From Gammaproteobacteria bacterium (GTDB lineage Bacteria > Pseudomonadota > Gammaproteobacteria > DSM-19610), in NCBI GenBank assembly GCA_026197075.1, contig JAPHQV010000013.1, forward strand, positions 62,001-126,000: a stretch of DNA of 64,000 nucleotides, in the 5' to 3' direction. Every line of letters begins with the position of its first letter. Positions within the stretch are counted from its first letter, which is position 1. The notes under the pieces are model-generated. The model searched no databases. It was not told the DNA's origin and saw only the letters and a list, made by a program, of their open reading frames with translations. A program made the position numbers and the translations under genes. Of this stretch, positions 3,025 to 23,949 are shown piece by piece.

Positions 3025-3040
3025 AAAAGAACGGCAAATC

Positions 3041-9165: not shown

Positions 9166-9189
9166 GTCTTGACTCCTCCGATACCGGTG

Positions 9190-9930
9190 TTAGCGCTGTT
9201 CGCCAGATTCCAGACGGGCAGCCCAGGGCGCCAGATGGCGTTTCTCGCGAGGGTTATCCACCTGGTTGCGCGAGGGGCTGAAGAACACCCCGGGTGCGTG
9301 CAGCAGTTTACTGATCGGGAATACGATCATGAGCGCCACCACCATGCCCAGATGGGCCAGCAGCAGCGGGTCGGTGGGCAGAGGCTGTGGCGAGAAGCGC
9401 ATCAGACCCAGGAAAAATCCTTTGACCATGACGATATCGGTGTGGGCAACGAAGGTCATGCCCATGCCGGTGATGGCGATGCCGACCAGCAGTGCCAACA
9501 TCAGGTGATCGGACGGGGCGCTGATGTAGCGCACGCGATCCACCAGGAAGCGGCGCGCCCACAGACCGAGCAGGCCGGCCAGCATGGCGAAGCTGGCATA
9601 CTTGCCAAAGGGCTGCATGAGTGCCACCCAGGTCCATACCGGGTCAGTGAAATAGCGCAGATGGCGCAGCAGCACCAGCAGCATGCCAAAGTGGAACAGG
9701 TAGCCGAACAACCAAATCCACTTGTTGGACTTGAACAGGCTTTCGAAAAAGACCACTTCGCGAAACAGACGCAACACGACACCGGACTGTGTCGTCGGTG
9801 CGGGCGTGGTGGGAATCTTGAGGGGAGCAGGCGTGCTCGCATATTTTTTGATGCGAAATGCCAATCCAACCACCAGGAGTACCGTGGCGGCATAGAACAG
9901 TACGACGTACAGACCTGTTACGAGCGACAC
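9190..9930 (-). CDS. dsrM: DsrM, NarI-like haem b membrane subunit
   Basis: The 246-residue protein has about five to six transmembrane segments and conserved histidines within them (FHFGMLLVLLRH, LLLAHLGMV), as in the haem b-binding subunit NarI. DsrM anchors DsrK in the inner membrane and exchanges electrons with quinones. A strong hairpin (9962-9983) lies between dsrC and this gene. The ATG at 9930 follows a modest ribosome site (reverse strand TAGGAGCC). Confidence 0.94.
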   Translation of the reverse strand: MSLVTGLYVVLFYAATVLLVVGLAFRIKKYASTPAPLKIPTTPAPTTQSGVVLRLFREVVFFESLFKSNKWIWLFGYLFHFGMLLVLLRHLRYFTDPVWTWVALMQPFGKYASFAMLAGLLGLWARRFLVDRVRYISAPSDHLMLALLVGIAITGMGMTFVAHTDIVMVKGFFLGLMRFSPQPLPTDPLLLAHLGMVVALMIVFPISKLLHAPGVFFSPSRNQVDNPREKRHLAPWAARLESGEQR

Positions 9931-9961
9931 TGTCGGCTCCTATTCATACGGTAAACGGGAG

Positions 9962-9983
9962 TGGGGGGCTTTGCAGCCCCCCA
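9962..9983 (-). other. Strong hairpin between dsrC and dsrM
   Basis: A perfect 9-base stem (TGGGGGGCT / AGCCCCCCA) with a TTGC loop stands in the 77-base gap after dsrC. No T run follows on the minus strand, so it is not a classical terminator. It could protect the dsrC 3' end after processing and so raise DsrC over the membrane subunits; that role is inferred. Confidence 0.7.
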
Positions 9984-10007
9984 GGAACATCCAACCCGGG
10001 TCGGCGC

Positions 10008-10340
10008 TTATACGCAACCGGTCGGCTTGGGCAGGCCGGCATATTTACAAGCCTGCTTGGCGGGACCATAGGGGAACAGTTCGTACAGGTACTTGCTGTT
10101 GCCCTTGTCCTTGCCCAGCTTCTTGCCGATGGCCTTGGTCAGAACGCGGACGGCCGGGGCGATCTGGTACTCTTCATAGTACTCACGCAGGAAATTGATC
10201 ACTTCCCAGTGGGCGTCGGTCAGTTCCTGGTCTTCGGCGGCGGCCATTACGGTGGCGGCTTCCGGTTCCCACTGGTTCAGGTCGGCCAGGTAACCTTCTT
10301 CGTCGGTTTCCAGCATTTTACCGTTTACTTCGATAGGCAT
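10008..10340 (-). CDS. dsrC: DsrC, sulfur-carrier substrate protein of DsrAB
   Basis: The 110-residue protein is a canonical TusE/DsrC-family member with both redox cysteines: Cys98 (KQACKYAG) and the penultimate Cys109 (PTGCV). The two cysteines carry sulfur atoms between DsrEFH, DsrAB and DsrMK as persulfide or trisulfide. The protein is cytoplasmic. It lies after dsrH with a clear ribosome site (GAGGAGATG on the minus strand). Compare the cysteine-free paralogue at 16414-16752. Confidence 0.97.
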   Translation of the reverse strand: MPIEVNGKMLETDEEGYLADLNQWEPEAATVMAAAEDQELTDAHWEVINFLREYYEEYQIAPAVRVLTKAIGKKLGKDKGNSKYLYELFPYGPAKQACKYAGLPKPTGCV

Positions 10341-10382
10341 GATACATCTCCTCGTTGGGATGATTGCAGTTTATGAAATCGC

Positions 10383-10691
10383 TTACAGCCAGGACTGGAC
10401 TTTGTCGTACTCAGTCACCAGGTCAACGAAGCCTTCGTAATCCACGACCTTGACGCCGTCGATCACGTTGTCCTCGGACAGCCCGCGGGCCTTGACATCA
10501 GGACCGAGGACATAGAGGGAACGGCCCGACAACGCGGCTTTCACCTTGTCGGCCACGGCGGTTCCGTTCATTGCGGCATAGACTCCGTCTTCAAACAGAA
10601 GAATGCCGCTACCTTCCTTCGCGTGCTCCAGGCAGGAGACGAATGCGTTACGCTCGAAAGGGGATTTGTTTACCGTATGCAACTGTGCCAT
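10383..10691 (-). CDS. dsrH: DsrH, subunit of the DsrEFH sulfurtransferase
   Basis: The 102-residue protein belongs to the DsrH/TusB family and carries the conserved Cys20 (AFVSCLEHA). With DsrE and DsrF it forms the cytoplasmic alpha2beta2gamma2 hexamer that passes sulfur to DsrC. It lies 10 bases after dsrF, with a GGAGA ribosome site. Confidence 0.94.
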   Translation of the reverse strand: MAQLHTVNKSPFERNAFVSCLEHAKEGSGILLFEDGVYAAMNGTAVADKVKAALSGRSLYVLGPDVKARGLSEDNVIDGVKVVDYEGFVDLVTEYDKVQSWL

Positions 10692-10701
10692 GGAAATCTC
10701 C

Positions 10702-11097
10702 TCAGAAGCTCAGAATCACGTCCTGTTCGTCCATCAGGTCGGCCATTTCCGCACGGGAAACGACCTCCACGGGTACGATCAGGTCGTCGGTGGTAAGGCC
10801 GCGTTCTTCCAGGGCTTCCTTCTCGACATAGAGCTTCTCGACATCGTAGCCTTCCAGGGCCCGATAGGTCGGCGAGAAGTTCTTCATGCCGATGCCGGCG
10901 GTATCCTGTCCCTTCTTGATCTGGTATACACCATCATCAACAAAGGCCAGGCTTACGTCCTGTTCGAATGCTGCGGCGATCAACACCACTTCCAGGGACT
11001 CCAGGGCATAGATGGTGCCGTAGGGAGCCTTACGGTTTACATATAAGAACTTGAAGACCGGGCCTTCAACTTCATCGTCTTCCCAAGGTTCTGCCAT
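10702..11097 (-). CDS. dsrF: DsrF, subunit of the DsrEFH sulfurtransferase
   Basis: The start MAEPWEDDE at 11097 gives 131 residues, the usual length for the DsrF/TusC family. The frame extends upstream to 11133, but that would overlap the end of dsrE, and the inner ATG has its own ribosome site (reverse strand AGGAAATC). DsrF is the non-catalytic structural subunit in DsrEFH. It lies 16 bases downstream of dsrE. Confidence 0.93.
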   Translation of the reverse strand: MAEPWEDDEVEGPVFKFLYVNRKAPYGTIYALESLEVVLIAAAFEQDVSLAFVDDGVYQIKKGQDTAGIGMKNFSPTYRALEGYDVEKLYVEKEALEERGLTTDDLIVPVEVVSRAEMADLMDEQDVILSF

Positions 11098-11113
11098 TTT
11101 CTGATTTCCTGTG

Positions 11114-11506
11114 TTAGTCGCCAAAGACCACAAGACGGTCAGCCTGGATGCCGGCTTCGATCAGCTGACCGAGGCCGGAGATGCGAAAACCCGGGGCGAT
11201 GTTATTACCATCCTTGCCCTGACGCTTCGCTTCATCCGCGTCCAGAATGCCGCGACGCTGCGCGGCCGCGATACACACCACCAGGTCGATATTGTGTTCA
11301 GCGGCCAGTTTCGACCAGCTGTCCACGATGTTCCTATCATCCTGCGGCGGTACGGGAAAACGGGTGCTGTTGTTCACGCCGTCGTGATAAAAGAACACGC
11401 GGAAAATCTCGTGTCCCTTGCTCAGGGCGGCGCGAACGAACTGCAGCGCGCTGTCCGCGGACTGGTGCTGATAAGGGCCTTCGTTGACCATTACTGCCAG
11501 TTTCAT
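11114..11506 (-). CDS. dsrE: DsrE, catalytic subunit of the DsrEFH sulfurtransferase
   Basis: The 130-residue protein is of the DsrE/TusD family with its catalytic cysteine at position 78 (LVVCIAAAQRRG), the same number as in Allochromatium DsrE. The persulfide formed there is transferred to DsrC. Presence of dsrEFH with dsrAB is a recognised marker of sulfur oxidation rather than sulfate reduction. It follows dsrB after 36 bases. Confidence 0.96.
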   Translation of the reverse strand: MKLAVMVNEGPYQHQSADSALQFVRAALSKGHEIFRVFFYHDGVNNSTRFPVPPQDDRNIVDSWSKLAAEHNIDLVVCIAAAQRRGILDADEAKRQGKDGNNIAPGFRISGLGQLIEAGIQADRLVVFGD

Positions 11507-11542
11507 TGATTCACCTCTGTCCCGTTAGCCATGCACACCCGC

Positions 11543-12619
11543 TCAGAAGCGGATGTGGGTAGAGGCGTTCAGGTTCGCGCGAGCACCAACCCAGTTGTCG
11601 ACGTGGTACTTGGTAAAGGGCAGTCCGGTCTTCTCGAAGAAGCGGGGCCAGCCGATGCGTTCGACCCAGTCGTTGATGCGCTCCCAGTCTTTCGCATCTT
11701 CCTTGTAAACTTTGAGGATGCGCTTGACGATGGCGGTGGCTTCGGGCCAACGCGGCGGGTTGTTGGGGATGCCGGACGCAACCAGTTTCTGGAAGGTGGG
11801 CTTGCCACGGGCGTTGGAGTGGTTGCCACCGACCCAGATGGCCAGCTTGGTGTGCTCGGCGTCGTTGATCTGCATCGGGGGGCAGGGCGGGAAGCAGGCA
11901 CCGCAGCAGATGCACTTCTTCTCGTCCACTTCCAGGGAGGGCTTGCCGTCGACCAGCGCGGGGCGAATGGCGGCCACCGGGCAACGCGCCACTACGGAGG
12001 GACGTTCGCAGACGTTGGATACCAGGTCGTGATTGATCTTCGGCGGCTTGGTGTGCTGCACGTTGATCGCGATATCACCCTGGCCGCCGCAGTTGATCTG
12101 GCAGCAGGAGGTGGTGATATGCACACGGTTGGGCATGTTCCAGGACTTAAAGTCGTCGATCAGTTCGTCCATCATGGACTTCACGACACCGGATGCATCG
12201 GTACCGGGGATGTCGCAGTGCAGCCAGCCCTGGGTATGGGACAGGCTGGTGACGGAGTTCTTGGTGCCACCGACCACGAAGCCGGCGTCCTCGACGGCCT
12301 TGATCAGGGGTTCGACCTTGGCTTCGTCGGCAACCGTGTATTCCAGGTTGCTGCGCAGGGTGAAACGGATGTAACCGTCGGCGTACTTGTCACCGATGTC
12401 GCACAGGGTGCGCAGGGTGAAGATGTCGAGGATACGCTGGGTGCCGACCTTCACGGTCCACACGATGTCACCGCTGTGGGCAACGTGCCGCAGCACGCCG
12501 GGACGCGGATCATCATGGTATTTCCACTGGCCAAAGTTCTTGCGCATCACAGGATGCATGTACTGGAATCCGTCCGGGCAACCGGATTCGATCGGCGGAC
12601 GCATGTCTGACATTGCCAT
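11543..12619 (-). CDS. dsrB: DsrB, beta subunit of reverse dissimilatory sulfite reductase
   Basis: From ATG 12619 the protein has 358 residues; the ribosome site AGGAGATAACC just upstream decides this start over one at 12655. The sirohaem/iron-sulfur half-motif includes TTSCCQINCGG, and a ferredoxin domain follows (CICCGACFPPCPP). With DsrA it forms the cytoplasmic sirohaem-amide enzyme that oxidises DsrC-bound sulfur to sulfite. A hairpin and about 100 bases separate it from dsrA. Confidence 0.97.
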   Translation of the reverse strand: MAMSDMRPPIESGCPDGFQYMHPVMRKNFGQWKYHDDPRPGVLRHVAHSGDIVWTVKVGTQRILDIFTLRTLCDIGDKYADGYIRFTLRSNLEYTVADEAKVEPLIKAVEDAGFVVGGTKNSVTSLSHTQGWLHCDIPGTDASGVVKSMMDELIDDFKSWNMPNRVHITTSCCQINCGGQGDIAINVQHTKPPKINHDLVSNVCERPSVVARCPVAAIRPALVDGKPSLEVDEKKCICCGACFPPCPPMQINDAEHTKLAIWVGGNHSNARGKPTFQKLVASGIPNNPPRWPEATAIVKRILKVYKEDAKDWERINDWVERIGWPRFFEKTGLPFTKYHVDNWVGARANLNASTHIRF

Positions 12620-12656
12620 GGTTATCTCCTGAAACTTATCTGATTCAATCGTCAAG

Positions 12657-12679
12657 GCGGGGCGGTGGAACCGCCCCGC
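12657..12679 (-). other. Hairpin in the dsrA-dsrB gap
   Basis: A perfect 10-base stem (GCGGGGCGGT / ACCGCCCCGC) with a 3-base loop lies 47 bases downstream of the dsrA stop. No U tract follows, so it is more likely an mRNA stability or processing element than a terminator. Confidence 0.7.
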
Positions 12680-12725
12680 ACCAGACTTGGTAGATACCTA
12701 CCGGGTTAATACGGTCGCAGCCGAT

Positions 12726-13979
12726 TTACACCTGACCTTCGGCCTTGCGGGCAAACCACTTCTCGGCTTCCTCGTCCCAGCCATCCATGCGGATGTAGGA
12801 GATACGACGGGGATTCGAGATCATGTTCGGGTCTACCTCGATGCCGATGCCTTCCAGGAAGTTCATCAGGCCGATACGCTCGATCATTTCACCGCAGCGT
12901 TCGTGTTCCAGGCCGTTCTCGGCCCAGAAGTCGATGATTTCCTCGGCCATTTCCACCAGGCTTTCGTAGTCTTCTTCGGTTTCCAGCTTCTTGAAGGGCA
13001 CCACGACGGTACCCATCAGGTCGCCGATCTTCAGGGTGCGCTTGCCACCGATCAGGATGGACACGCCGCGGTCATCGCCGGGGCTCAGAGCCTTGGGCAT
13101 GACGTTCAGGCAGTGCATGCAGCGTACGCAGTTGCTGTTGTCCACCACCAGGGTGTCGTCATCCGCGAGGGACAGGGCCTTGGTGGGGCACATGCCGACC
13201 ACGTAGTCGATGATGTACTGGCGACCCTTCTTGGCCACGTAGGCCTTCACTTCTTCCTGGTCGACCTTCATGTCGTCGCGCCAGGTACCGATCACGGCGA
13301 AGTCCGAACGTTCGATGGCGTTCTGGCAGTCGTTGGGGCAGCCGGAAACCTTGAACTTGAACTTGTAGGGCAGTGCCGGACGATGCACGTCGTCGGTGAA
13401 GTTGGTCAGCAGGTGACGGTGAATGGCGTGCTCGTTGCAGCAGGACTGTTCGCAACGGGCGGCACCCACGCAGGACATGCCGGTACGAACGCAGGGGCCG
13501 GCGCCACCGAGGTCCCAGCCATATTCGTTGATTTCGTCAAAGAAGTGCTGGGTGCCGGGGGTGTCGGTACCGATGAACATGATGTTGCCGGTCTGACCGT
13601 GGAAGGTCTGCAGGCCGGAGCCGTGTTTTTCCCAGCTGTCCCCGAGCTTGCGGAGCATGTCGGTGGTGTAGTAGTTGCCGGGTGGCGGCTGAACGCGGAG
13701 GGTGTGGAATTCTTTGGATTCGGGGAAGGCCTTGGCCACTTCGGAGAAGCGGGGGATGATGCCGCCGCCGTAACCGAATACAGAAACGGTGCCACCTTTC
13801 CAGTAGCCCTTGCGGGTCTCGTAGGAGTGTTCCAGCTGACCCAGAAGAGAGTTGGTGACTTCCCGAATGCGCTCTTCAGGATGTTCGTCGCGCAGACGCT
13901 TGATGCCGGTGATGAAGCTGGGCCACGGGCCGTTTTCCAGTTCGTCGAGCATCGGAGTTTCATGGATCTTCTTTGCCAT
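12726..13979 (-). CDS. dsrA: DsrA, alpha subunit of reverse dissimilatory sulfite reductase
   Basis: The 417-residue protein shows the coupled sirohaem-[4Fe-4S] cysteine motifs (CVGAARCEQSCC and CPNDC) and an inserted ferredoxin domain (CVRCMHCLNVMPKA), in the order typical of DsrA. It is the first gene of the operon and is preceded by a GGAGAACGAC ribosome site. The 530-base region upstream, shared with the divergent plus-strand cluster, must hold the operon promoter. Confidence 0.97.
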   Translation of the reverse strand: MAKKIHETPMLDELENGPWPSFITGIKRLRDEHPEERIREVTNSLLGQLEHSYETRKGYWKGGTVSVFGYGGGIIPRFSEVAKAFPESKEFHTLRVQPPPGNYYTTDMLRKLGDSWEKHGSGLQTFHGQTGNIMFIGTDTPGTQHFFDEINEYGWDLGGAGPCVRTGMSCVGAARCEQSCCNEHAIHRHLLTNFTDDVHRPALPYKFKFKVSGCPNDCQNAIERSDFAVIGTWRDDMKVDQEEVKAYVAKKGRQYIIDYVVGMCPTKALSLADDDTLVVDNSNCVRCMHCLNVMPKALSPGDDRGVSILIGGKRTLKIGDLMGTVVVPFKKLETEEDYESLVEMAEEIIDFWAENGLEHERCGEMIERIGLMNFLEGIGIEVDPNMISNPRRISYIRMDGWDEEAEKWFARKAEGQV

Positions 13980-14511
13980 GTCGTTCTCCTATAAGGATTT
14001 TGTGGGTGGCAAGCGGCCTTGGGGTCGTCTGCCGTGTTAGTACCGTTTACTGCAAGACTGCTTGAATCTGTATGCCGTTCTCGTGTTTCCAGGTCCAGAG
14101 CAACCGAAACACGGACGATCCTCGATTTCGGTTATGGAAGTCTAGGGAGACACCCCACAACAGCAAACCCTACCCTTGGGGTGTTCCGGGGGCGTCCGCT
14201 TATCCCAAATGGGATAGGCATAAACTCCCGGAATTCAAGGCCGTGGATTATACGAGGGCGGCGCCCGGGTGCCAAGCCTTCTTTAATGGGGTCATAAAAC
14301 AAAGACTTGAGGCGATGTTTTCGATCCGTCCCGGGGGCCTGCCGAAACGATGCCGGCGGGGATAGGCGGTAAATAACACACTAATTATCCTGGTGTATGG
14401 TCCTGGCTCCCCGGCGATCCTGTATTAGAATGGCCGCGCCATGCCGGGTGGACTTGTGTTTGTGGGGGATCGTCCCCAAATCCGGTTTGAGCCAGAGACG
14501 GTGGGTAGCGG
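13980..14511. promoter_or_regulatory. Divergent intergenic region between dsrA and the TauD/Cas6-like cluster
   Basis: About 530 bases without a convincing gene lie between two head-to-head operons. It contains a palindrome at 14201-14216 and a possible plus-strand -10 (TATTAGAAT, about 14424-14432). I cannot fix the dsr promoter by eye. Confidence 0.6.
14201..14216. promoter_or_regulatory. Palindromic operator candidate upstream of dsrA
   Basis: The sequence TATCCCAAATGGGATA is a perfect inverted repeat of 7-base half-sites around 2 bases, located 222 bases before the dsrA start. Its form and position suit a dimeric regulator. The regulator is not identified. Confidence 0.45.
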
Positions 14512-15432
14512 GTGGTCACTGAAAATCCCTTTGCATTGCAGGATGGCGACGCCTACGCCCGCTGGCGTGACTGGAAACTGGCCCGATATCCAGGCTCCAG
14601 CGCCGAGCTGCTGGTCGAGATCGCCGACCCGTTCCGGCTCACGGCCGTTGAGCGGGAGGCGATCCTCGACCGTTGCCGGCGCGCCAATATGGTGCTCTAT
14701 GCCCTGCGGGACAGCGTCGGTGAGGACAAGGAGGCCATCCGGGCATTGGGCCGGCAGCTGGGGCTGGAACGGCTGGACAGCAACCTCGGCGCCGACGAGG
14801 ACAGCATTACTTCGCTGCGGGTGGTGGAAGGGGATCGCCGTACCGGTTACATCCCCTATACCAACCGGCGTCTGAGCTGGCATACGGATGGCTATTACAA
14901 TGGCCAGGATGAACAGATCCGCGCCATCCTGATGCACTGCGTACGGGCCGCCGCCGAGGGTGGCGCCAATGCCCTGGTGGATCACGAGATGGTGTATATA
15001 CAGTTGCGCGAAGCCGACCCGGCCTATGTGCAGGCATTGATGCAGCAGGACGTGATGACCATTCCGCCCAACGAAGAAGGTGGCGAGGCCATCCGGGAGG
15101 CGCGCAGTGGCCCGGTGTTTTCACTGGATGCGAACAGTGGCAGCCTGCATATGCGCTACACGGCCCGCACGCGCAGCATCGAGTGGAAACAGGACGCGCT
15201 CACACAGGAGGCGATCACCCTGCTGAGCCGCCTGCTGGAGGATGCGAATCCGTATCGCTTCGAATATCGCCTTGATCCGGGGCAAGGCATCATTTGCAAC
15301 AATGTGCTTCATTGCCGCACGGCATTCGCGGACGACGAGGCATCTGGACAGCAGCGGCTCCTGTACAGGGCACGCTACTATGACCGCATTCACGAAACCG
15401 GAATGGCCGACCTGGGTTGGCAAGGGAATTGA
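14512..15432 (+). CDS. TauD/TfdA-family Fe(II)/2-oxoglutarate-dependent dioxygenase
   Basis: The 306-residue protein has the TauD-fold facial triad: His124 and Asp126 (SWHTDGYY) and the distal His267 (NNVLHCRTAF), followed by an Arg-rich 2-oxoglutarate-binding strand (QRLLYRARYYDR, about 281-292). It should hydroxylate a small molecule using O2; the substrate is unknown. The start is a GTG at 14512. It heads a plus-strand cluster divergent from dsrA, and the next gene starts one base after its stop. TauD-like enzymes can release sulfite from organosulfonates, but nothing here shows that this one does. Confidence 0.82.
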   Translation: MVTENPFALQDGDAYARWRDWKLARYPGSSAELLVEIADPFRLTAVEREAILDRCRRANMVLYALRDSVGEDKEAIRALGRQLGLERLDSNLGADEDSITSLRVVEGDRRTGYIPYTNRRLSWHTDGYYNGQDEQIRAILMHCVRAAAEGGANALVDHEMVYIQLREADPAYVQALMQQDVMTIPPNEEGGEAIREARSGPVFSLDANSGSLHMRYTARTRSIEWKQDALTQEAITLLSRLLEDANPYRFEYRLDPGQGIICNNVLHCRTAFADDEASGQQRLLYRARYYDRIHETGMADLGWQGN

Positions 15433-15433
15433 T

Positions 15434-15622
15434 ATGTTATGGCTGAGCGAGGTGTTGATGCAGCACCATGAGATGACCTCCTTCGAGGAACTGGAAAAGG
15501 TGATCAAGGAGAAGGCGCGCAGCGGCGAAACCTTTTTCAGCATGGATGTGCGTCCGCCCTTCCCGGATACCCCCGAGAGCTGGGAAACCCGGCTGGAAGC
15601 GGCGTTCTACACGGCCAACTGA
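15434..15622 (+). CDS. Small conserved protein of the Cas6-like/RspA cluster (62 aa)
   Basis: The start ATG at 15434 follows the TauD-like stop by one base, so the two are translationally linked. The protein (MLWLSEVLMQHHEM at the start) has an amphipathic N-terminal half (FEELEKVIKEKARSG) and a proline-rich part (VRPPFPDTPESWE). It has no cysteine and no recognised domain. The tight packing between an oxygenase and a Cas6-like protein argues that it is real. Function unknown. Confidence 0.72.
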   Translation: MLWLSEVLMQHHEMTSFEELEKVIKEKARSGETFFSMDVRPPFPDTPESWETRLEAAFYTAN

Positions 15623-15636
15623 CAGGAGAGTACCCC

Positions 15637-16335
15637 ATGATGTACTGGGAAGAGGATCGACAGGACAAGGACCGCTTGACGGTGCCGGATGACATCGTCG
15701 ACCTGATCTATGTCATCAATTGCAAGATGCTGCCGCTGGATCATGCCTATGCCTTTTCGCGGGCGCTGCTCCAGGCCCTGCCCTGGCTGGAAGAGGAATC
15801 AGCAGCCGGCATCCACCTGATCCATGGGGCCGAGTCCGGCAACGGCTGGTACCGGCCGGAGAGCGGAGAAGGCCAGTTACTGCACCTGTCGCGCCGGGCC
15901 CGCATGTCCATCCGGGTACCGAAGGAAAGGGTGGAGGATGCCCGTGCCCTGGTGGGTCAGACCCTGGATATCGAGGGCTATCCCCTGGAGGTGGGCGAGG
16001 CCAGCACCAAGAAGCTCAGCTCCATGGCGACCCAGTTCTCCCGCTATGTCGTAGAGGCCGAGGGACAGAGTGAAGAAGAATTTCTTGAGCATGTGGTGCA
16101 AGAAATGCGAAAATTACAAGTTCCCGTGCGTAAGATCATGTGTGGGCGTTCCCACCTGATCCGCACGCCGGAGGAAGACATCCATACCCGTGCCGTCATG
16201 GTGGCCGATCTGGATCCCGCCCATGCCATCCTGCTGCAGGAGCAGGGCATCGGACCAGGCCGTAAGCTGGGCTGCGGGTTATTCATCCCGCACAAGGGTA
16301 TTTCCTCCATAGGCGAAACCCGCGCGGATGACTGA
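15637..16335 (+). CDS. Stand-alone Cas6/Cmx6-like RAMP protein
   Basis: The 232-residue protein resembles the Cas6/Cmx6 family of CRISPR-RNA endonucleases from type I-MYXAN-like systems. It has the N-terminal strand DLIYVI (22-27), the LDHAY motif (34-38, with His36 a candidate catalytic residue), two ferredoxin-like halves, and the C-terminal glycine-rich RAMP loop GIGPGRKLGCGLFIPHK (204-220). No CRISPR array, cas1/cas2 or effector gene is present in the window. It lies between a 62-residue protein and a DsrC paralogue, with AGGAG 8 bases before its ATG. I infer a Cas6-derived RNA-binding or RNA-cutting protein now working with sulfur metabolism. Catalysis is not shown. Confidence 0.78.
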   Translation: MMYWEEDRQDKDRLTVPDDIVDLIYVINCKMLPLDHAYAFSRALLQALPWLEEESAAGIHLIHGAESGNGWYRPESGEGQLLHLSRRARMSIRVPKERVEDARALVGQTLDIEGYPLEVGEASTKKLSSMATQFSRYVVEAEGQSEEEFLEHVVQEMRKLQVPVRKIMCGRSHLIRTPEEDIHTRAVMVADLDPAHAILLQEQGIGPGRKLGCGLFIPHKGISSIGETRADD

Positions 16336-16413
16336 GCCGAATACCCCGGGGGCCGGATACGGACTCCATGGGTTGTTTTTTGACTTAACTGCAAAACCCG
16401 GACGGAGAGAACG

Positions 16414-16752
16414 ATGAGCATTGAGTGCAATGGCAAGACCATTGAAACAACCGAAAACGGCCACCTGGTGAACGCGGAAGACTGGAGCGAGGATGTCGCG
16501 AAGGTCATCGCTGAAAAAGAAGGCGTCGAGATGACCGACGAACACTGGGACGTGGTCAACTACCTGCGTGACGAGCACTTCAATAATGCCGGTAACGAGC
16601 CCAACGAGCGCACCATCCTCAAGGACATGAGCAAGAAATGGGACAAGAAACTCACCAGCAAGGACATGTACAATCTGTTCCCGCTGATGCCCAGCAAGCA
16701 GGGTCGCAAGATTGCCGGCCTGCCCCAGAGTACCCGCAAGGGCGGTTACTGA
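16414..16752 (+). CDS. RspA-like DsrC paralogue lacking both redox cysteines
   Basis: The 112-residue protein aligns end to end with DsrC (10008-10340), sharing the TDEHWDVVNYLRD region and the LFP..P.KQ..K.AGLP C-terminal arm. However, Cys98 of DsrC is Arg98 here (KQGRKIAG) and the penultimate Cys is replaced (TRKGGY). The only cysteine is Cys5. It cannot carry sulfur as DsrC does; cysteine-free DsrC homologues have been called RspA and are suspected to be regulatory. It lies 78 bases after the Cas6-like gene, with a GGAGAG ribosome site. Confidence 0.9.
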   Translation: MSIECNGKTIETTENGHLVNAEDWSEDVAKVIAEKEGVEMTDEHWDVVNYLRDEHFNNAGNEPNERTILKDMSKKWDKKLTSKDMYNLFPLMPSKQGRKIAGLPQSTRKGGY

Positions 16753-16885
16753 TCCCGGCCGGGGCCGGCCCCACTGCCCAATGGGGATATGGCCCCGTGC
16801 CCTCACAGGCTCTATAGTCCCTGCACTCCGGGGCTCCCCGAGCCGAATCCGATGAAAACCTTGACTTAGCCAAAGGTGGAAGAAG

Positions 16886-17089
16886 ATGAGCGAAAAGGCG
16901 GAAATGATCAAGAAGATGCTTGAATTGCAAAAGAAATTCATTGCATACGAGCAGCAGAATGGCGTCGACCCCAAGGATTACTATGCACCGGAATCCGGTC
17001 ACGTACTGGCTGGCTACCGGCAGGAATACCGCGACCTGGCCATGAAGGTCGTGGAACTGGCGCATGCGGAGAAGGGCTCCCACGCCTGA
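16886..17089 (+). CDS. Small conserved protein closing the Cas6-like/RspA cluster (67 aa)
   Basis: The 67-residue protein has a basic, helical N-terminus (KAEMIKKMLELQKKFI) and a middle segment DYYAPESGHVLAGYR that looks like a conserved core. It has no cysteine, signal or membrane segment. A GGTGGAAG ribosome site precedes ATG 16886 and a terminator follows at 17119-17147, so it is the last gene of the cluster. An octamer TTGACTTA lies shortly upstream of both this gene (16861) and the DsrC paralogue (16380). Function unknown. Confidence 0.72.
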   Translation: MSEKAEMIKKMLELQKKFIAYEQQNGVDPKDYYAPESGHVLAGYRQEYRDLAMKVVELAHAEKGSHA

Positions 17090-17118
17090 TCCGGCGGCCT
17101 CGCGGCCCAATCGAAAAA

Positions 17119-17147
17119 GCCGGACGGGATTCCCGCCCGGCTTTTTT
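17119..17147 (+). terminator. Rho-independent terminator of the TauD/Cas6-like/RspA cluster
   Basis: A 10-base stem (GCCGGACGGG / CCCGCCCGGC, one mismatch) with a 3-base loop is followed by TTTTTT, 30 bases after the last gene of the cluster. Confidence 0.92.
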
Positions 17148-17220
17148 GTGGGCGGCCTTTAAGCCGATAATTTAGATGAAATATATTACTTAACTATAAA
17201 TAAAATAATAAAAACATTAC

Positions 17221-17251
17221 CCGTCATTGCGAGCGCAGCGAAGCAATCCCC
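17221..17251. repeat. Solo repeat of the GTCATTGCGAGCGCAGCGAA type
   Basis: The sequence CGTCATTGCGAGCGCAGCGA (17222-17241) and its continuation match a dispersed repeat common in environmental bacterial genomes. Only one copy is seen here, in an AT-rich gap (17148-17266) that holds nothing else I recognise. Confidence 0.5.
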
Positions 17252-17266
17252 CGGGAGGCGTTGGGC

Positions 17267-17938
17267 CTACAGCTCCGCCCACATGCGCACCAGGTTGATA
17301 TAGGTTCGGCTGACCCGTTTGGTTTCCTCGGCACCGGGGCGCTCCCGCAACAGCCGCTCACGAGCCTGGTAGAGCTCGAACAGGATCTCCCGCTGGCCGG
17401 GGTCACGCACCAGGCTTTGCACCCAGGTGACGGCCACCAGGCGTTCACCACGGCTGACCTCGGCCACCTGGTGCAGGCTGCCCGAGGGATACATCACCGC
17501 ATCGCCGGCGGGCAGCTTCACGGCCTGGTCGCCGAAGCCGGTGCGGATCACCAGCTCTCCACCCTCGTAATCCCCAGGACCGTTGAGGAATACGGTAATG
17601 GAAAGATCGGTACGATAACGGTCGCCCTGGCCCATGACGGGGTCATCGATATGATCACCATAGCCCATGCCGGTCGTGTAGCGGGCATAGAAGGGGGCTG
17701 CCACACGGTGGGGAAGCGCCGCGCCCTGGTAGAGGGGATGTCGCACCAGGTTGCCCATGACGATCTGGTTGAGCTGCTGCACCATGGGGGCGTCACCGGC
17801 GAGTTCCTCGTTGTGTTTCACCTGGCCGGCCTCCATGCCGGCGGACAGGCGGCCGTCGACGAAGCGGCCGCGCTCGAGCAGCTGGCGGATGGTGGCAAGT
17901 TGCGTGGCGTCCAGGACACCGGGGATGTGCAGCAGCAT
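17267..17938 (-). CDS. PKHD-type (PiuC/YbiX) Fe(II)/2-oxoglutarate hydroxylase
   Basis: The 223-residue protein matches the PiuC/YbiX family in length and motifs: His96 and Asp98 (GDHIDDPVM), His156 (SGSLHQVAEV) and Arg166 (RGERLVAVTWVQS) form the iron and 2-oxoglutarate sites. Family members are often linked to iron uptake, with a TonB receptor nearby; here no such neighbour is adjacent. The first residues (MLLHIPGVLD) are typical of the family, supporting start 17938. Confidence 0.9.
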   Translation of the reverse strand: MLLHIPGVLDATQLATIRQLLERGRFVDGRLSAGMEAGQVKHNEELAGDAPMVQQLNQIVMGNLVRHPLYQGAALPHRVAAPFYARYTTGMGYGDHIDDPVMGQGDRYRTDLSITVFLNGPGDYEGGELVIRTGFGDQAVKLPAGDAVMYPSGSLHQVAEVSRGERLVAVTWVQSLVRDPGQREILFELYQARERLLRERPGAEETKRVSRTYINLVRMWAEL

Positions 17939-17980
17939 GGGCGGTTGCTCTAGAATGAGTTATTTGCAGTGAAACCGGAT

Positions 17981-18120
17981 TTTCACCGCAAAGGTGCAAA
18001 GAACGCAAAGAAATTCATCGGGTGAATACGCTGCCAGATCGCCCGGCACTCGTCGAGACAGGACAATCATCCGAATAATCGCATGGGGTTCCCTGCGTTC
18101 TTTGCGCCTTTGCGGTGAAA
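17981..18120. repeat. Long inverted repeat (CACCGCAAAGG...GCAAAG family), copy 1
   Basis: Arms at 17981-18010 and 18093-18120 are near-perfect inverse copies (core CACCGCAAAGGTGCAAAG / CTTTGCGCCTTTGCGGTG) around about 80 bases. Related copies are at 23802-23887 and 46438-46634. It has no coding frame of its own, which suggests a non-autonomous, MITE-like element or a REP relative. Confidence 0.88.
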
Positions 18121-18143
18121 TCGCACAGTACAGGACTGAATCA

Positions 18144-18473
18144 ATGATATTGAATCTAACCGTGGACGACCAAACCATCCGGGTCAGCGTGCCCGAGGAA
18201 CTCATCCAGGAAGCGGAAGAACTCTACAGCAGAATGGACGCCGACATGGACAAAGGCTGGCAGATGAGCCGCACCTGGGTGGAGAATCTCGATACCTACC
18301 AGCGTTGCCAGGTGGCTGCGGACAAGGTGCTCGGCGCACTGCACAAGGACAACCGTAATCTCATGATGCTCTGGTCCGGGTACATCCTGTCGCGCATGCC
18401 CGGCGTGGGCGAGGTGGTGGTGGACACCAAGGGCGATATCACCGAAACGGTGATCCTGGGCGAGGCGCCCTAG
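18144..18473 (+). CDS. Conserved protein of unknown function (109 aa)
   Basis: The start ATG at 18144 lies just after the repeat element. The frame stays open upstream, but only through repeat sequence. The protein has a short beta-rich start (LNLTVDDQTIRVSVPEE) followed by helices and one cysteine (YQRCQVAADKV). It has no signal or membrane segment. It is followed after 5 bases by another small gene on the same strand, so the two probably form an operon. I do not recognise the family. Confidence 0.7.
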   Translation: MILNLTVDDQTIRVSVPEELIQEAEELYSRMDADMDKGWQMSRTWVENLDTYQRCQVAADKVLGALHKDNRNLMMLWSGYILSRMPGVGEVVVDTKGDITETVILGEAP

Positions 18474-18478
18474 CACTC

Positions 18479-18829
18479 ATGGCCGACCTGTTCCGTGTCA
18501 CCGCGCCTCTCGTGGTCCGTTTTCCCGACGGGGAGAAATGCATCATGGTGGAGCGATTTCCCCTCGCCAACGGCGTGCTCTACCTGGAACCCTTCTGGAC
18601 GCAACAGGATCCCGAGACCGCCTTCCAGCGCGTGGAAGGCCCGTTAAAGGGCGATGGACCCTGGAAGGTGGGGGATGCGGTCATTACTGTGCTCGGCTGC
18701 CAGGGCACGGACCCCGCAATGGCCGAGCTGCATGCCCGCTGGCAGACCCATATGCAGGAACCCGGCTTTGAACTCCCGCCGCGGGAGATCGTCGAGGCCC
18801 TGGCGCGGGAGCGTGGCGCGCTGGTGTAG
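18479..18829 (+). CDS. Conserved protein of unknown function (116 aa)
   Basis: The 116-residue soluble protein starts 5 bases after the stop of the preceding gene. It contains a beta-rich N-terminal half (FRVTAPLVVRFPDGEK) and a helical C-terminus (REIVEALARERGALV). No motif or metal site stands out. It is convergent with cmoB. Function unknown. Confidence 0.7.
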   Translation: MADLFRVTAPLVVRFPDGEKCIMVERFPLANGVLYLEPFWTQQDPETAFQRVEGPLKGDGPWKVGDAVITVLGCQGTDPAMAELHARWQTHMQEPGFELPPREIVEALARERGALV

Positions 18830-18870
18830 GTCTATCCCCTGCAGGTGAGACTTCAGTCCGACTCGCCCTG

Positions 18871-19845
18871 TCAGGGCCGCCGCGCCAGCAGGATCGCCCG
18901 CCGTGGCGCGGGATCGCCTTCCACTGTTTTTGCAGGGTCGTCCGGGTCCAGGCACTGGGCCAGGGATTCGAAGCGCATCCAGTCGGTGCCGCGCTGTTCT
19001 TCCGTGGTGGTGCGCGTCACATCCACGCAGCGCACCTCCAGGAATCCGGCCCGTTCCAGCCAGTGTTGCAGTTCCGGCACCGAGGGGATGAACCAGACAT
19101 TGCGCATGCGCGCGTAGCGATCCCGCGGTACCAGCACCCGGCCGGCTTCCGCTTCGATCACCAGGGTCTCCAATACCAGCTCACCTCCGGGCCGTAACGT
19201 CTCGCGCAGTTCCTGCAGGTGGTCGAAAGGCGAGCGGCGGTGATAGAGCACGCCCATGGAAAATACCGTATCGAAGAGCGCCATCCTGGCCGGCAGCTCC
19301 TCCAGCGCAAGGGGCAGCAGGCCCGTATGCGGATCCTTGAGGTAATGCTGCAGGGCCGCGAACTGGTGAACAAAGAGCAGGGTAGGGTCGATGCCCAGGG
19401 CCAGGCGCGCGCCCGCGCCCCGCATGCGCCACAGGTGATAGCCGTTGCCGCAGCCCACATCCAGCACCAGGCGATCCTGCAAGGGCTGGATGTGTTCGCG
19501 CAGGCGTCGCCACTTCCAGTCGGAACGCCATTCGGTGTCGATGTGCAGGCCGAACAGGCAGAAGGGCCCCTTGCGCCAGGGATGGAGCTGCCGAAGGGCC
19601 TGTTCCAGGGCCTGCCGCTGCGCCGCGTCCAGATCCTCGGCGCAGCCGATGCCGATGCAATCCTGGTCCAGGTCCAGGTGATCGGGTCGTGCCATTGGCA
19701 GCGCCCGCAGCGCCGCCTGCCAGCGCGGCAGGTCGCCATGTCCTTCCGGCCGTAATCGTGCCGCCGTCAGCGCGCGCAGTTGCTCACGCCAGGGGTCCAG
19801 GGCGGCATCGTCCAGGGCCCCGTGGTCGAACCATGCGTCTGTCAT
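18871..19845 (-). CDS. cmoB: CmoB, tRNA U34 carboxymethyltransferase
   Basis: From ATG 19845 the protein has 324 residues, the usual CmoB length. A SAM-binding motif ([15 protein letters not shown]) and the C-terminal [14 protein letters not shown] are characteristic. It uses carboxy-S-adenosylmethionine made by CmoA to convert 5-hydroxyuridine at tRNA position 34 to uridine 5-oxyacetic acid. Its ATG overlaps the cmoA stop (ATGA), so I chose it over the upstream in-frame start at 19890. Confidence 0.95.
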
Positions 19846-20570
19846 TTGAAGGCGACGAAGGAGGCGAAGTTGAAGCAGCGGAACCAGCATTCACTGCGCT
19901 GAAAGCCCGCCCAGCGCAGTCGTTCCTCGTGCTGCTCGCGGGTGTCTGGGATGAGTACGTTTTCCAGCGCCGTGCGTTTCTGACTGATCTCCAGTTCCGA
20001 GTAACCGTTGGCGCGTTTGAAGGCGAGATGCATGGCGGTATTGAAGTCCTGCTCCTGCTCATTGGCGAACATGAGCTTCTCGGACAAGACCAGAATCCCG
20101 CCCGGACGCAGGCCGGCGTGGATGCGCTGCAGCATGGGGAGGCGTTCGGCGGGTTCGAGGAACTGCAGGGTGAAGTTCAGCACCACCACCGAGGCATCCT
20201 CGATGTCCACCTCGCGCACATCCGCGCAGCGCAGCTCCACCGGCACGGTGCCGGGCGCCTGTTCCAGGTTGGCGCGCGCCTGTTCCAGCATCGCCGGGGC
20301 GTTATCCACGGCGATGATACTGCAATCCGCGTGGGGGATGCGCCGACGCATGGACAGGCTGGCAGCGCCCAGGGAACAGCCCAGGTCATAGCAGCGGCTG
20401 CCGGGTTGCGCGTAGCGCTCCGCCAGCAGTCCGGTCAGTGCGATGATCTCGCCGTAGCCGGGAACCGAGCGGCGGATCATGTCGGGAAATACCGACGCCA
20501 CACTGGCGTCGAAGGCGAAATCGACGATGTGGTCGCGGGGGGTGGCGAAAAGGGTATCGGGGGTTTTCAT
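19842..20570 (-). CDS. cmoA: CmoA, carboxy-S-adenosyl-L-methionine synthase
   Basis: From ATG 20570 ([11 protein letters not shown]) the protein has 242 residues, as usual for CmoA. The SAM-binding site [15 protein letters not shown] and a family signature near the C-terminus (ENVLIPDT) are present. It makes carboxy-SAM from SAM and prephenate for CmoB. Upstream in-frame codons to 20648 run into a repeat (20617-20707) and are not coding. Confidence 0.95.
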
Positions 20571-20616
20571 GGTGGTTATGATAAGCCAGCGTAGCTGGTG
20601 GATTCTATTGGATTCG

Positions 20617-20707
20617 GAGGTGCAAAACGCGGAGAACGCAGAGTACACGGAGATTTCGTAATCAAAAACTCTGTGTCCTCCGTTTCTCTGCGTTCTCCGC
20701 GTTCAGC
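20617..20707. repeat. Inverted repeat (ACGCGGAGAACGCAGAG family)
   Basis: Arms at about 20621-20653 and 20666-20704 are inverse copies (core CGCGGAGAACGCAGAG / CTCTGCGTTCTCCGCG). The wording resembles the CCGCAAAGGCGCAAAGG family but the sequence is distinct. It occupies the gap between cmoA and the GNAT gene. Confidence 0.85.
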
Positions 20708-20753
20708 AGCGCCAGACTTCAAAATCCCTCCTCGCTGCACGGCACCGGATCAC

Positions 20754-21185
20754 TCATAAATCCTTGACCATGCGCACATGGGCAATGCGTCCGAACAGGG
20801 TATGGGCCTCGCCCAGGGTGCGGTACCCCTGCTTGGCGTAGAAGCGCTCGGCCGGCTTGCGCGCATCGAGCACCATGCGGCGGGCGCCGGCGGCGCGGGC
20901 CTGTTCCTCGAGAGTCACCAGGATGCGCCGGCCGATGCCCTGGCCGCGGCAGTCCTCGTCCACGGCCATGAAACGGATCTGGGCTTCTTCAGGGGTGTTG
21001 AAGTGCAGGCGGCCCACGCCGATCACATTGCCATCGGCGGCGGTTACCATCAGGTGTACGGCCTGTTCCTCCCGTTCATCGCGTTCACTCCCGGGCGGCT
21101 GGCCCCAGGGGCCGCGCAACAGGCGGTGGCGGAAGGCATAGTAACGCGTGAATTCCTCGACCGTGGCGGGTGCGCGGATGTCCAT
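20754..21185 (-). CDS. GNAT-family N-acetyltransferase
   Basis: The 143-residue protein has the GNAT core: a beta strand with IRFMAVDEDCRG, the acetyl-CoA loop GQGIGRRIL (about residues 82-90), and the C-terminal FYAKQGYRTLGEA. The substrate is unknown. It lies 10 bases after the Fe(II)/2-oxoglutarate oxygenase gene on the same strand. Confidence 0.88.
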   Translation of the reverse strand: MDIRAPATVEEFTRYYAFRHRLLRGPWGQPPGSERDEREEQAVHLMVTAADGNVIGVGRLHFNTPEEAQIRFMAVDEDCRGQGIGRRILVTLEEQARAAGARRMVLDARKPAERFYAKQGYRTLGEAHTLFGRIAHVRMVKDL

Positions 21186-21195
21186 GTCATCCGCT

Positions 21196-21804
21196 TCAGG
21201 CGAACACCACCCAGGTGGTGGCGATGTATTTCACGCCCTGGTGAAGGGTCACGCCGCGGTGCTCGTGGGTCCAGAAGGGCGGGAACAACAGCAGCTTGCC
21301 CTGTTCCGGCTTGATCCTCACATCCTGGAACAGGAACTCGGTCTCACCGCCGGGACCGGGCACGTCGTTGAGATACCAGACCGCCACCAGCTGTCGCTCG
21401 GAAAAGTCGTGGCTGCCACCGTCGATGTGCCAGTGGTAGTGCTCACCGGGCAGGGTACGCTGGATGGCGTACCCGTTATCCTTGAAGGGGCCCTTGAAGT
21501 AGGGAAAGGTCTCGCGGAATTCCTTCAGCGCCAGGCCCAGGGAACGGAACAGGTTGTTGTCCACGTCCTTCCAGTGTTCCTTGCCGCTCACCACCAGGTC
21601 GGTGGATTTCTTGATGCTGCGGTCCTCGACCGCGACCTGGCCGATGCGCCCCAGGTATTGTTCTTCGCTGGCCGCCTCGAAGCGCTCGATCATGTTGTCG
21701 CACAGGAAGCCGGGCAGGGCATCGCGCTTTTCGAAAATGAAGCTGTGCGGCTTGATCTCGCGGATGGAGGCGAGTGGCGGGCCCTCGGGATTGGGTCGGG
21801 ACAT
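21196..21804 (-). CDS. Fe(II)/2-oxoglutarate oxygenase (prolyl-4-hydroxylase-like)
   Basis: The 202-residue protein has the HxD motif at His126/Asp128 (HWHIDGG), a distal histidine at 180 or 182 (FWTHEHRG) and a basic residue (VKYIATTW), as in the 2OG-FeII_Oxy_3 family. It would hydroxylate a protein side chain or small molecule. It precedes the GNAT gene by 10 bases, suggesting co-expression. It is the third such oxygenase in about 7 kb (with 14512-15432 and 17267-17938), although the three are of different subfamilies. Confidence 0.85.
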   Translation of the reverse strand: MSRPNPEGPPLASIREIKPHSFIFEKRDALPGFLCDNMIERFEAASEEQYLGRIGQVAVEDRSIKKSTDLVVSGKEHWKDVDNNLFRSLGLALKEFRETFPYFKGPFKDNGYAIQRTLPGEHYHWHIDGGSHDFSERQLVAVWYLNDVPGPGGETEFLFQDVRIKPEQGKLLLFPPFWTHEHRGVTLHQGVKYIATTWVVFA

Positions 21805-21862
21805 GCGGATACCAGTGCGGGATTAGTGTGACGGCGCAGTTCTTTTGCCATCGCTGTCTCAA

Positions 21863-21965
21863 GCCGAGTCACATGCCTGGCAGCAGGTGTCGGCCGCAGG
21901 GATGCGGCCGTCAAGCCTACAGGGATGTATTTACGGCGTCCTGCTGCCAGGCATGTGACTCGGCT
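21863..21965. repeat. 26-base perfect inverted repeat with conserved spacer
   Basis: Positions 21863-21888 and 21940-21965 are exact inverse copies of 26 bases (start AGCCGAGTCACATGCCTG). The 51-base spacer has its own inverted pieces (CGGCCGC, GCGGCCG). It separates two genes and looks like a mobile palindromic unit or a structured RNA; only one copy is seen. Confidence 0.85.
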
Positions 21966-21987
21966 GCTGGCAACGCCTCCGATTCTC

Positions 21988-23031
21988 TTACAGATGATGA
22001 CGGTCGATCAAGGCTTCCATGTGCGGCGCGGCCCGCGGGCCGTGGTGCCGGTGCAGCTCCAGCAGGCCCTCGGCGAGGGTCAGCCAGTGAGCGCGGGCGG
22101 TACTGGTGAGCTTTTCGAGGGCGCCGAGCTGCCCCGTGTCGCGCCAGTGTTCATAGGCCGCGCGCAGGCTGGGGAAGATCTCGTGGCGCATGCCGTTGAG
22201 GTTGGCCATGTAGAAGTGCAGGGAACCGGCCTGGCGGCGTTCCAGCAGGGCGGGCAGGGTGGACAGGGCATCGGCCAGGTGATCGCGCACGGCGCGTGCC
22301 ATGATCTCCGGGCGGGAACGGTCCAGGCTGGACAGCATGTCCTGCCACTGACTGCCGAGCTGGCGCCCGGCCATGACCTCGCCCAGTTCGTGCAGCACCA
22401 CCACGTCCACCTCGTTGTCGGTCATCTGGTCGAGGGCCTGTTCCAGGTCGTGATCGAAATCATAGCTGGCAATGGCCCGGCCCATGGGGTTGTCGTTCTT
22501 GTGCCAGCGCCATTCCTCGAGCTTTTCCCACAGCATGCGGCGGAAGGATTCACGTCGTACATAGATGGTCGTGCCCTGGCTCATGGCCGGTGGGGCGGTC
22601 AGGTCGCGGGCATGCTCGCGACCGGAAATCAGGATGCGGTAGCCATCCTGCGTCTCGACCCGCTCCAGGTCGGCCAGGAAGAAATGGGGGCGGCTGTTGT
22701 GGCCCAGGCCACCGCTGTAGACCAGTCCCTGGTCGAGCAGGAATTCGTTTACACGGTCGGATTCGAAGGGGGGCAGGTGTGCCTCGCCGATGACCAGGTC
22801 CTGGTACGGACGTTGTTCGAGGCCTTCCCAGAGAGCCTCGCGCGCCATCAGCCACTCGCCGACCGCCTCGCCAGGCAGGGAGGCGCCATAGGGATAACCC
22901 TGCTCCCAGCGAAAATACTCGCGCATCTTGAGCAGGTAGATGCACATGGTGTAATCGCTGGCGTGGCGCGCATCGGCGATATGACAGTTGGTCTGCACCG
23001 TCTCACGCAAGGACTGGAAGGCTGTCTCCAT
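21988..23031 (-). CDS. Conserved protein of unknown function (347 aa, Sfum_1244-like)
   Basis: The 347-residue soluble protein opens with a cysteine-containing helical segment (CHIADARHASDYTMCIYLLKMREYF) and has a histidine-containing region (VVLHELGEVMAGRQ) and a histidine-rich end (LHRHHGP). It resembles, from memory, proteins named Sfum_1244 family in sulfur-cycle bacteria; that name carries no known function. HELGE resembles a zinc-protease HExxH but lacks the second histidine at the right spacing. No signal or membrane segment. Confidence 0.75.
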   Translation of the reverse strand: METAFQSLRETVQTNCHIADARHASDYTMCIYLLKMREYFRWEQGYPYGASLPGEAVGEWLMAREALWEGLEQRPYQDLVIGEAHLPPFESDRVNEFLLDQGLVYSGGLGHNSRPHFFLADLERVETQDGYRILISGREHARDLTAPPAMSQGTTIYVRRESFRRMLWEKLEEWRWHKNDNPMGRAIASYDFDHDLEQALDQMTDNEVDVVVLHELGEVMAGRQLGSQWQDMLSSLDRSRPEIMARAVRDHLADALSTLPALLERRQAGSLHFYMANLNGMRHEIFPSLRAAYEHWRDTGQLGALEKLTSTARAHWLTLAEGLLELHRHHGPRAAPHMEALIDRHHL

Positions 23032-23199
23032 GGGTGATCACCACTGGCTGTAAAACAACAGTTGGAAGCCGGTCAATACCTGAGTAGAATACTCGGTTAT
23101 GTATGCTAGCACGAGCCGGGGCAGCCCCGCCAGCCGTCCCGCCCGTGCCAGAAACCCTGTACCATCGGGCGTCCTCCGTCCCGCTGAATCCGTAGGAGA

Positions 23200-23787
23200 G
23201 TGAACAAGGTGGCCATTCGCGTAAAAAGCCGTTGGGCGAACAAAGACCGTAAACACAGTGCCGCGGAGGCGGCCAGCGCCCTGGCCTTCATTGCCTGGCG
23301 TATCGCCGGCAACATGGTCCTGAACCTGGAAAACGAAGGTTTTCAGACCGAGACCAATGTGCAGCGCCTGCGCGTCATGTCCGAGGCCCTTTCCTTCCTG
23401 GTGCACATCACCGACCGCCAGGTGGCCGACACCATGACGCCGGAACAGCGCCAGGTCTTCATCACCGCCTATGCCCTCAAACTGGCGGACTACATGCAGG
23501 AAAATATGGACGACCTGGCGGGTGCCGACAAGGATTACCGCAAGGTTTTTATTGATGTACTCAACGAACGCATGGCCGATTACGCGGACTTCAGTTTCAG
23601 CGAGGGCGAGCCGGGCTACGGCTTCAAACGCTACCTGGGGGAGAAGGTGACCGATGCCATGGGGCCCAAGGACCGCAAGTGGATCAGCGACCAGGTCATG
23701 GAGATCGAGGTGCCGGAGATGCTCAAGTCCCTGCGCAAGGGGCTCGGCGACCTGGCCGACCCGGAGAAGATCGACTGGGAGGGTTAA
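23200..23787 (+). CDS. Conserved protein of unknown function (about 195 aa)
   Basis: The gene starts at GTG 23200 or, more likely by family appearance (MAIRVKSRW), at GTG 23209; AGGAG (23193-23197) stands nearer to the ideal distance from the second. The protein is alpha-helical and soluble, with the conserved-looking segment KDRKHSAAEAASALAFIAWRIA near the start. No catalytic motif is evident. A repeat element follows directly after its stop. Confidence 0.72.
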   Translation: MNKVAIRVKSRWANKDRKHSAAEAASALAFIAWRIAGNMVLNLENEGFQTETNVQRLRVMSEALSFLVHITDRQVADTMTPEQRQVFITAYALKLADYMQENMDDLAGADKDYRKVFIDVLNERMADYADFSFSEGEPGYGFKRYLGEKVTDAMGPKDRKWISDQVMEIEVPEMLKSLRKGLGDLADPEKIDWEG

Positions 23788-23801
23788 ACGGAAAAAGCAT
23801 C

Positions 23802-23887
23802 TTCACCGCAAAGGCGCAAAGGACGCAGAGAAAAATCAAAAAATAATCATGAATTTCTCGGCGTCCTTTGCGCCTTTGCGGTGAAAA
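23802..23887. repeat. Long inverted repeat (CACCGCAAAGG...GCAAAG family), copy 2
   Basis: Arms at 23802-23833 and 23854-23885 are inverse copies (core CACCGCAAAGGCGCAAAGGA) around a 20-base spacer. This is the tightest copy of the family seen in the window. Confidence 0.92.
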
Positions 23888-23900
23888 CGAATTTCGCATA

Positions 23901-23929
23901 AAAAAAGCGGGCACAAGGCCCGCTTTTTC
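23901..23929. terminator. Bidirectional Rho-independent terminator
   Basis: AAAAAGCGGGC, a 5-base loop ACAAG, then GCCCGCTTTTT gives a symmetrical hairpin with T runs on both strands, placed between the convergent genes ending at 23787 and 23950. Confidence 0.92.
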
Positions 23930-23949
23930 ATGACGCGATTGCGAAGGAC

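Follow-up and report, generated by a model that had tools for sequence, protein, structure and literature searches.

Background

The penultimate cysteine of DsrC takes sulfur from DsrEFH, and the protein is thought to present it to DsrAB with its flexible C-terminal arm (PMC3397948). DsrC of Allochromatium vinosum is also stated, with reference to earlier work, to bind DNA upstream of dsr (PMC5944118). TusE, a member of the same superfamily, keeps the penultimate cysteine. A further kind, RspA, is said to consist of regulatory DsrC-like proteins from which both conserved cysteines are absent. The paper to which that definition is ascribed, Venceslau et al. 2014, is cited in PMC7787665, where DsrC is also mentioned as having a putative part in regulating transcription. 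Five phage DsrC proteins with neither cysteine are reported in PMC8190135.

The window studied here (the whole stretch of DNA analysed, 64,000 nucleotides of a gammaproteobacterial contig) encodes a canonical DsrC with both cysteines on the minus strand at 10008-10340, within dsrABEFHCMK, and this protein, ending KQACKYAGLPKPTGCV, was used for comparison. On the opposite strand, at 16414-16752, lies the gene for a DsrC-family protein of 112 amino acids (ATG start) in which both sulfur-carrying cysteines are absent and the C-terminus is RKGGY. RspC is our own name for this protein and its RKGGY orthologues.

Results and discussion

Firstly, the family membership of RspC was determined. It scored 113.6 bits against Pfam DsrC PF04358 (7.6e-33, cut-off 24.9) and 100.4 bits against NCBIfam TIGR03342 (6.7e-29, cut-off 53.5), in the superfamily that also holds TusE (PRK11508, NF008562), while the TusE equivalog cut-off was missed (86 bits vs 191). 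In the alignment Cys98 of DsrC corresponds to Arg98, the penultimate Cys109 to Gly111 and Val110 to Tyr112, and there is an Arg-Lys insertion ahead of the glycine, giving the C-terminus KQGRKIAGLPQSTRKGGY. RspC thus differs from DsrC proper, which has the penultimate cysteine and another 11 residues before it, and from TusE, at Gly111. Neither active position holds a cysteine in any of 114 distinct RspC orthologues. The sequence-only reading of the window, that both sulfur-carrying cysteines are replaced and that no trisulfide can form, is upheld; since both are gone, RspC cannot hold a persulfide or trisulfide, and a non-carrier role is supported. The same reading had singled out Cys5 as a new cysteine. 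That residue is present in the RspC of the window, yet in just 3 of the 114 orthologues, and it was rejected as a new active cysteine. As a DsrC-family protein with no conserved cysteine, RspC is presumably of the RspA kind, with a putative regulatory function.

The AlphaFold model of RspC had a pLDDT of 90 and a pTM of 0.83, with a disordered tail (pLDDT 46). All eight significant Foldseek hits were DsrC-family structures, with a TM of 0.86 to 1yx3, the A. vinosum DsrC. The DsrC fold is thus retained, and so is the C-terminal arm as far as AGLP, both in line with the sequence-only reading. RspC shares with DsrC the linkage to dsr and the scaffold residues G7, G16, W24, L51, R52, P63, R66, K70, Y86, F89, P90, K95, Q96 and G102-P104. 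Beyond the arm the active tip of DsrC is replaced by the new, invariant RKGGY tail. Elsewhere than in the arm, RspC has also changed at about 20 positions whose invariance among 54 DsrC proteins is 93-100% (for example in EEYQIAPAVRVLT). With these DsrC-only surface residues lost, RspC and DsrC may differ in their partner surfaces.

The RKGGY codons (16735-16749, plus strand) are conserved in their meaning and not in their letters. Over all the loci analysed, RKGGY closes every one of the 124 distinct complete nucleotide sequences, which encode 123 proteins, with the lowest identity among orthologues at 54%. The three residues preceding it vary freely, and the five residues are specified by 4, 2, 4, 4 and 2 different codons for Arg, Lys, Gly, Gly and Tyr, respectively. 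The dN/dS of RspC lies between 0 and about 0.2 (dN 0-0.19 vs dS 0.17-1.6), which points to purifying selection. In a tree built without the arm and tail columns the RKGGY proteins formed one clade apart from DsrC (support 98/97), which shows a single origin. A whole-genome search of relatives recovered the full-length orthologue in 17 of 19 other genomes of the same family (70-97% identity). In the remaining two it was found in pieces where contigs end. Beyond the family, eight more genomes of the class have an orthologue with 54-75% identity. The next paralogues are well separated: their matches stop near residue 107 and reach 50% identity or less.

These results bear on whether RspC is simply a dying copy of DsrC. 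Loss of both active cysteines fits such a history, as does a short remnant seen at one locus without RspC (G215; at such loci the Cas6-like gene is followed either by a remnant or by another gene). Purifying selection, an invariant new tail written in varied codons, a deep single clade and conserved synteny are against it, and no close homologue at the same site was found to keep the C-terminal cysteines. We therefore reject a decaying duplicate, the probability of which we put at practically nil. From the sequences, RspC is judged a real, selected, orthologous component tied to sulfur oxidation.

A total of 11 DsrC domains, several of them lacking cysteines, is encoded by the genome of the window, which includes a 251-codon open frame with two tandem DsrC domains (G000 contig C14:9903-10595; loci L002, L007). 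An RKGGY protein was also found at 2971-3309 of a contig filed as viral (L175, IMGVR_UViG_3300032087_002997), where a DUF3310 gene adjoins it. It is nested among the RKGGY proteins of genomes of about 1.1 Mb, and by this placement the gene was apparently taken up by a phage. A second viral case (L174) is less clear.

In the usual gene order dsrCHFEBA runs leftward and is followed, in the rightward direction, by tauD-like, sorfX, o230 where present, the Cas6-like gene, RspC and, where present, sorfY. In the window dsrA (12726-13979, minus strand), with which the oxidative dsr cluster begins, is divergent from the set containing tauD, cas6 and RspC. The first plus-strand gene encodes a TauD/gamma-butyrobetaine-dioxygenase-like 2OG-Fe(II) dioxygenase (14512-15432; Pfam TauD 2.4e-22; syntenic in relatives). 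It is followed on that strand by sorfX (15434-15622), a conserved 62-amino-acid protein with 16 orthologues 50-95% identical and no Pfam or NCBIfam match, and by a gene for a Cas6/Cmx6-like protein (15637-16335) 78 bp upstream of RspC. Downstream of RspC is sorfY (16886-17089, plus strand), a conserved 67-amino-acid protein with no Pfam match. Counts were made over 86 distinct loci with enough flank: dsrA was within 8 kb of RspC in 68, the Cas6-like gene within 2 kb in 70, a dioxygenase gene no more than 6 kb away in 59, and sorfY within 1.2 kb in 47. In 30 of the 86 loci (for example L101 6513-7208 and L064 1565-2299), sorfX is separated from the Cas6-like gene by o230 (ALGQGIWLAVTYPIDPEL..), a conserved protein of about 230 amino acids without a Pfam match that is missing from the cluster of the window itself.

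The region upstream of dsrA contains two conserved features. One is an element, ACACCCCAAGGGTAGG, on the minus strand at 14169-14184. The other is a palindrome, TATCCCAAATGGGATA, at 14201-14216, with the form TATCCC-N4-GGGATA in the window and a sigma-70-like promoter match just ahead of it. Sixty-eight of 84 dsrA upstream regions match CTATCYC-N4-GRGATAG with two mismatches or fewer, and the palindrome is a probable operator of dsr. A similar palindrome half, GCCCAATGGGGATATGG, occurs between RspC and sorfY at about 16777-16793.

The company kept by RspC was examined in a class sample of 369 Gammaproteobacteria. RspC was found in 110 genomes, dsrA in 117 and Pfam Cas6 (PF09559) in 118; RspC and dsrA occurred together in 103 (Fisher p 3e-66), RspC and Cas6 in 106 (p 7e-73), and Cas6 and dsrA in 110 (p 1e-74), values which overstate the independent evidence because the genomes are related to each other. 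RspC occurs in Allochromatium palmeri, Thiocapsa, Thiocystis and Thiolinea, is retained beside dsr in genomes of only about 1.0-1.1 Mb (G058, G160, G304), and in one genome (G051) is directly upstream of dsrL and dsrJ. It was undetected in 14 of the 117 dsrA genomes, some of which may hold the diverged form described below, and therefore is not essential to Dsr. Cas6 was present without RspC in 12 genomes, and one genome (G224) has RspC and dsrA with no Cas6. Four complete genomes from outside the Gammaproteobacteria have RspC and a full dsrABEFHCMKL, again with no Cas6, and therefore tie RspC to Dsr and not to Cas6; in all four, tauD-like and sorfX are divergent from dsrA. At nine sampled loci in other genomes of the phylum, all without RspC, dsrAB-dsrL has no adjoining dsrEFHC or dsrMK. 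These loci (L216-L224) belong to other classes of the phylum, sometimes with two dsrA per genome.

Three members of the class sample that had earlier appeared negative (G585, G612, G636), betaproteobacterial as inferred from divergence, contain a DsrC-family protein ending GKGGY, with its gene directly downstream of the Cas6-like gene and divergent from dsrA. The GKGGY group is a clade of its own (support 100/99). Its union with the RKGGY proteins has weak support (82/35), and the place and the tail of the two agree. One GKGGY protein, in L227, retains a cysteine at about the upstream DsrC position. The window also encodes, at 23200-23787, a 195-amino-acid protein with no Pfam match. Loci L225, L226 and L227 have homologues of it (E 1e-34 to 5e-28) adjoining their GKGGY genes, and it is therefore another dsr-linked family. 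Taken over all these genomes, the KGGY proteins are consistently accompanied by a complete oxidative dsr cluster, with the Cas6-like gene a frequent but non-obligatory partner.

That neighbour clears the Cas6 thresholds by a wide margin. The protein at 15637-16335 matched Pfam Cas6 with 204 bits (2.3e-60, cut-off 26.7) and TIGR02807 with 124 bits (6.9e-36, cut-off 98.85), and its closest solved relative by sequence was a type I-B Cas6 (PDB 8fcj, 8.5e-18). However, the genome has no cas1 and no spaced CRISPR-like repeats were found at 9000-24000 of the window, so a CRISPR locus was rejected. The Cas6-like gene is immediately upstream of RspC, on the same strand and within 1 kb, in 89 of the 95 genomes where the two genes share a contig. 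The link noticed in the sequence-only reading is accordingly real and, in gamma- and beta-type genomes, far stronger than could be seen from the window, but it is not obligatory, as G224 and the four non-gamma genomes show.

For a protein that presents KGGY and lacks the sulfur-carrying cysteines, the simplest inference is a tail-in-pocket role in which no redox chemistry takes place. RspC would offer its flexible C-terminal tail, as DsrC does, to a pocket in some partner from the Dsr system, and the Lys-Gly-Gly-Tyr end would make a redox-inert contact, both charged and aromatic. In this way RspC could gate, report on or regulate Dsr, at the level of activity or of dsr expression, without passing a persulfide; by analogy with DsrC it may act in transcription. 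The Cas6-like RNA-binding protein and the TauD-like dioxygenase encoded with RspC in gamma- and beta-type genomes are probably parts, together with it, of one regulatory or maturation module, which can exist without RspC, as RspC can without Cas6. We give an even chance to the view that RspC is a selectively maintained, cysteine-free DsrC branch serving oxidative Dsr as an accessory or regulator without carrying sulfur.

Adjacency in 89 of 95 genomes and co-occurrence in 106 of the 110 with RspC would suit a different role, in which RspC serves a repurposed Cas6-like RNA endonuclease as subunit or ligand: the Cas6-like protein would bind or cut an RNA (dsr mRNA, for instance), and RspC would be the sensor or adaptor coupling this to sulfur flux. 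The pairing is held in the three beta-type genomes too, and the Cas6-like gene stands in a genome without cas1 and with no repeats near it. An RNA target was sought as conserved hairpins in four dsr/Rsp intergenic regions, where RNAalifold on 31-34 loci found none and Rfam gave no match. Within the family to which the genome of the window belongs, a dyad in the dsrA leader emerged, the palindrome described above, and its pair 6/13 (CG 33, TG 9, CA 7, TA 6) matches independence. The variation fits a DNA operator and is unlike an RNA hairpin, so the dyad, the sole conserved one in that leader, was rejected as the target of the Cas6-like protein. With RspC and dsrA present without Cas6 in G224 and the four non-gamma genomes, and Cas6 without RspC in 12 others, we consider the RNA role unlikely.

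A plain competitor, occupying the place of DsrC at the DsrAB channel, DsrK or DsrEFH and blocking sulfur transfer, is favoured by the shared fold and AGLP arm, by the redox-inert tail end and by the strict tie of RspC to oxidative dsr clusters that are complete. A mere blocker leaves five invariant tail residues unexplained, however, and the roughly 20 changed DsrC-invariant positions presumably lie on the partner surface; we hold this to be decidedly unlikely. Of the regulatory or competitor role suggested earlier, a non-carrier role is therefore retained, but not competition at DsrAB or DsrMK specifically. The invariant Gly-Gly next to the C-terminus, together with the dioxygenase gene found near RspC in 59 of the 86 loci, also raises processing or modification of the KGGY end: loss of Tyr would expose a Gly-Gly carboxylate that could undergo conjugation or thiocarboxylation, or the TauD-like dioxygenase would hydroxylate the tail. 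This is highly improbable: the conserved neighbours include no recognised E1-like or peptidase gene, RspC has the DsrC fold and not beta-grasp, and the dioxygenase is absent beside many copies of RspC.

As to novelty, cysteine-free DsrC-family proteins are already known as a kind, and there is weak evidence that the KGGY tail and the Cas6-TauD linkage are new. The open literature, which excludes most subscription papers, yielded no invariant KGGY tail, no DsrC paired with RspA in the relevant sense and no Cmx6 with dsrAB, and mentioned Cas6 alongside DsrC only in passing; the dsr-linked Cas6/TauD set seems to be undescribed there. In PMC8190135 and PMC4164917, on phage dsrC/tusE auxiliary genes without cysteines, neither an RKGGY tail nor a host orthologue was found described, and the RspC of the window is chromosomal instead. 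A DsrC-like gene, THSYN_22565, lies a few locus tags from the Thiodictyon dsr cluster (PMC5944118) and may be an RspC gene.

Conclusions

DsrC paralogues are numerous in sulfur oxidisers and are usually put aside as TusE-like; RspC is singled out among them as conserved and tied to dsr. It is conceivable, though doubtful, that in gamma- and beta-type genomes a hitherto undescribed accessory module regulates sulfur oxidation, made up of a Cas6-like RNA-binding protein exapted from CRISPR, a TauD-like dioxygenase, small proteins and a cysteine-free DsrC with the invariant KGGY tail acting as a protein switch. A Cas6 gene that annotation routinely assigns to CRISPR mainly accompanies dsr in Gammaproteobacteria, which matters for false CRISPR calls, and the finding is relevant to the reading of phage-borne dsrC genes. 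The five-residue tail is directly mutable, so that the role of non-canonical DsrC proteins can be tested in genetically tractable organisms such as Allochromatium.
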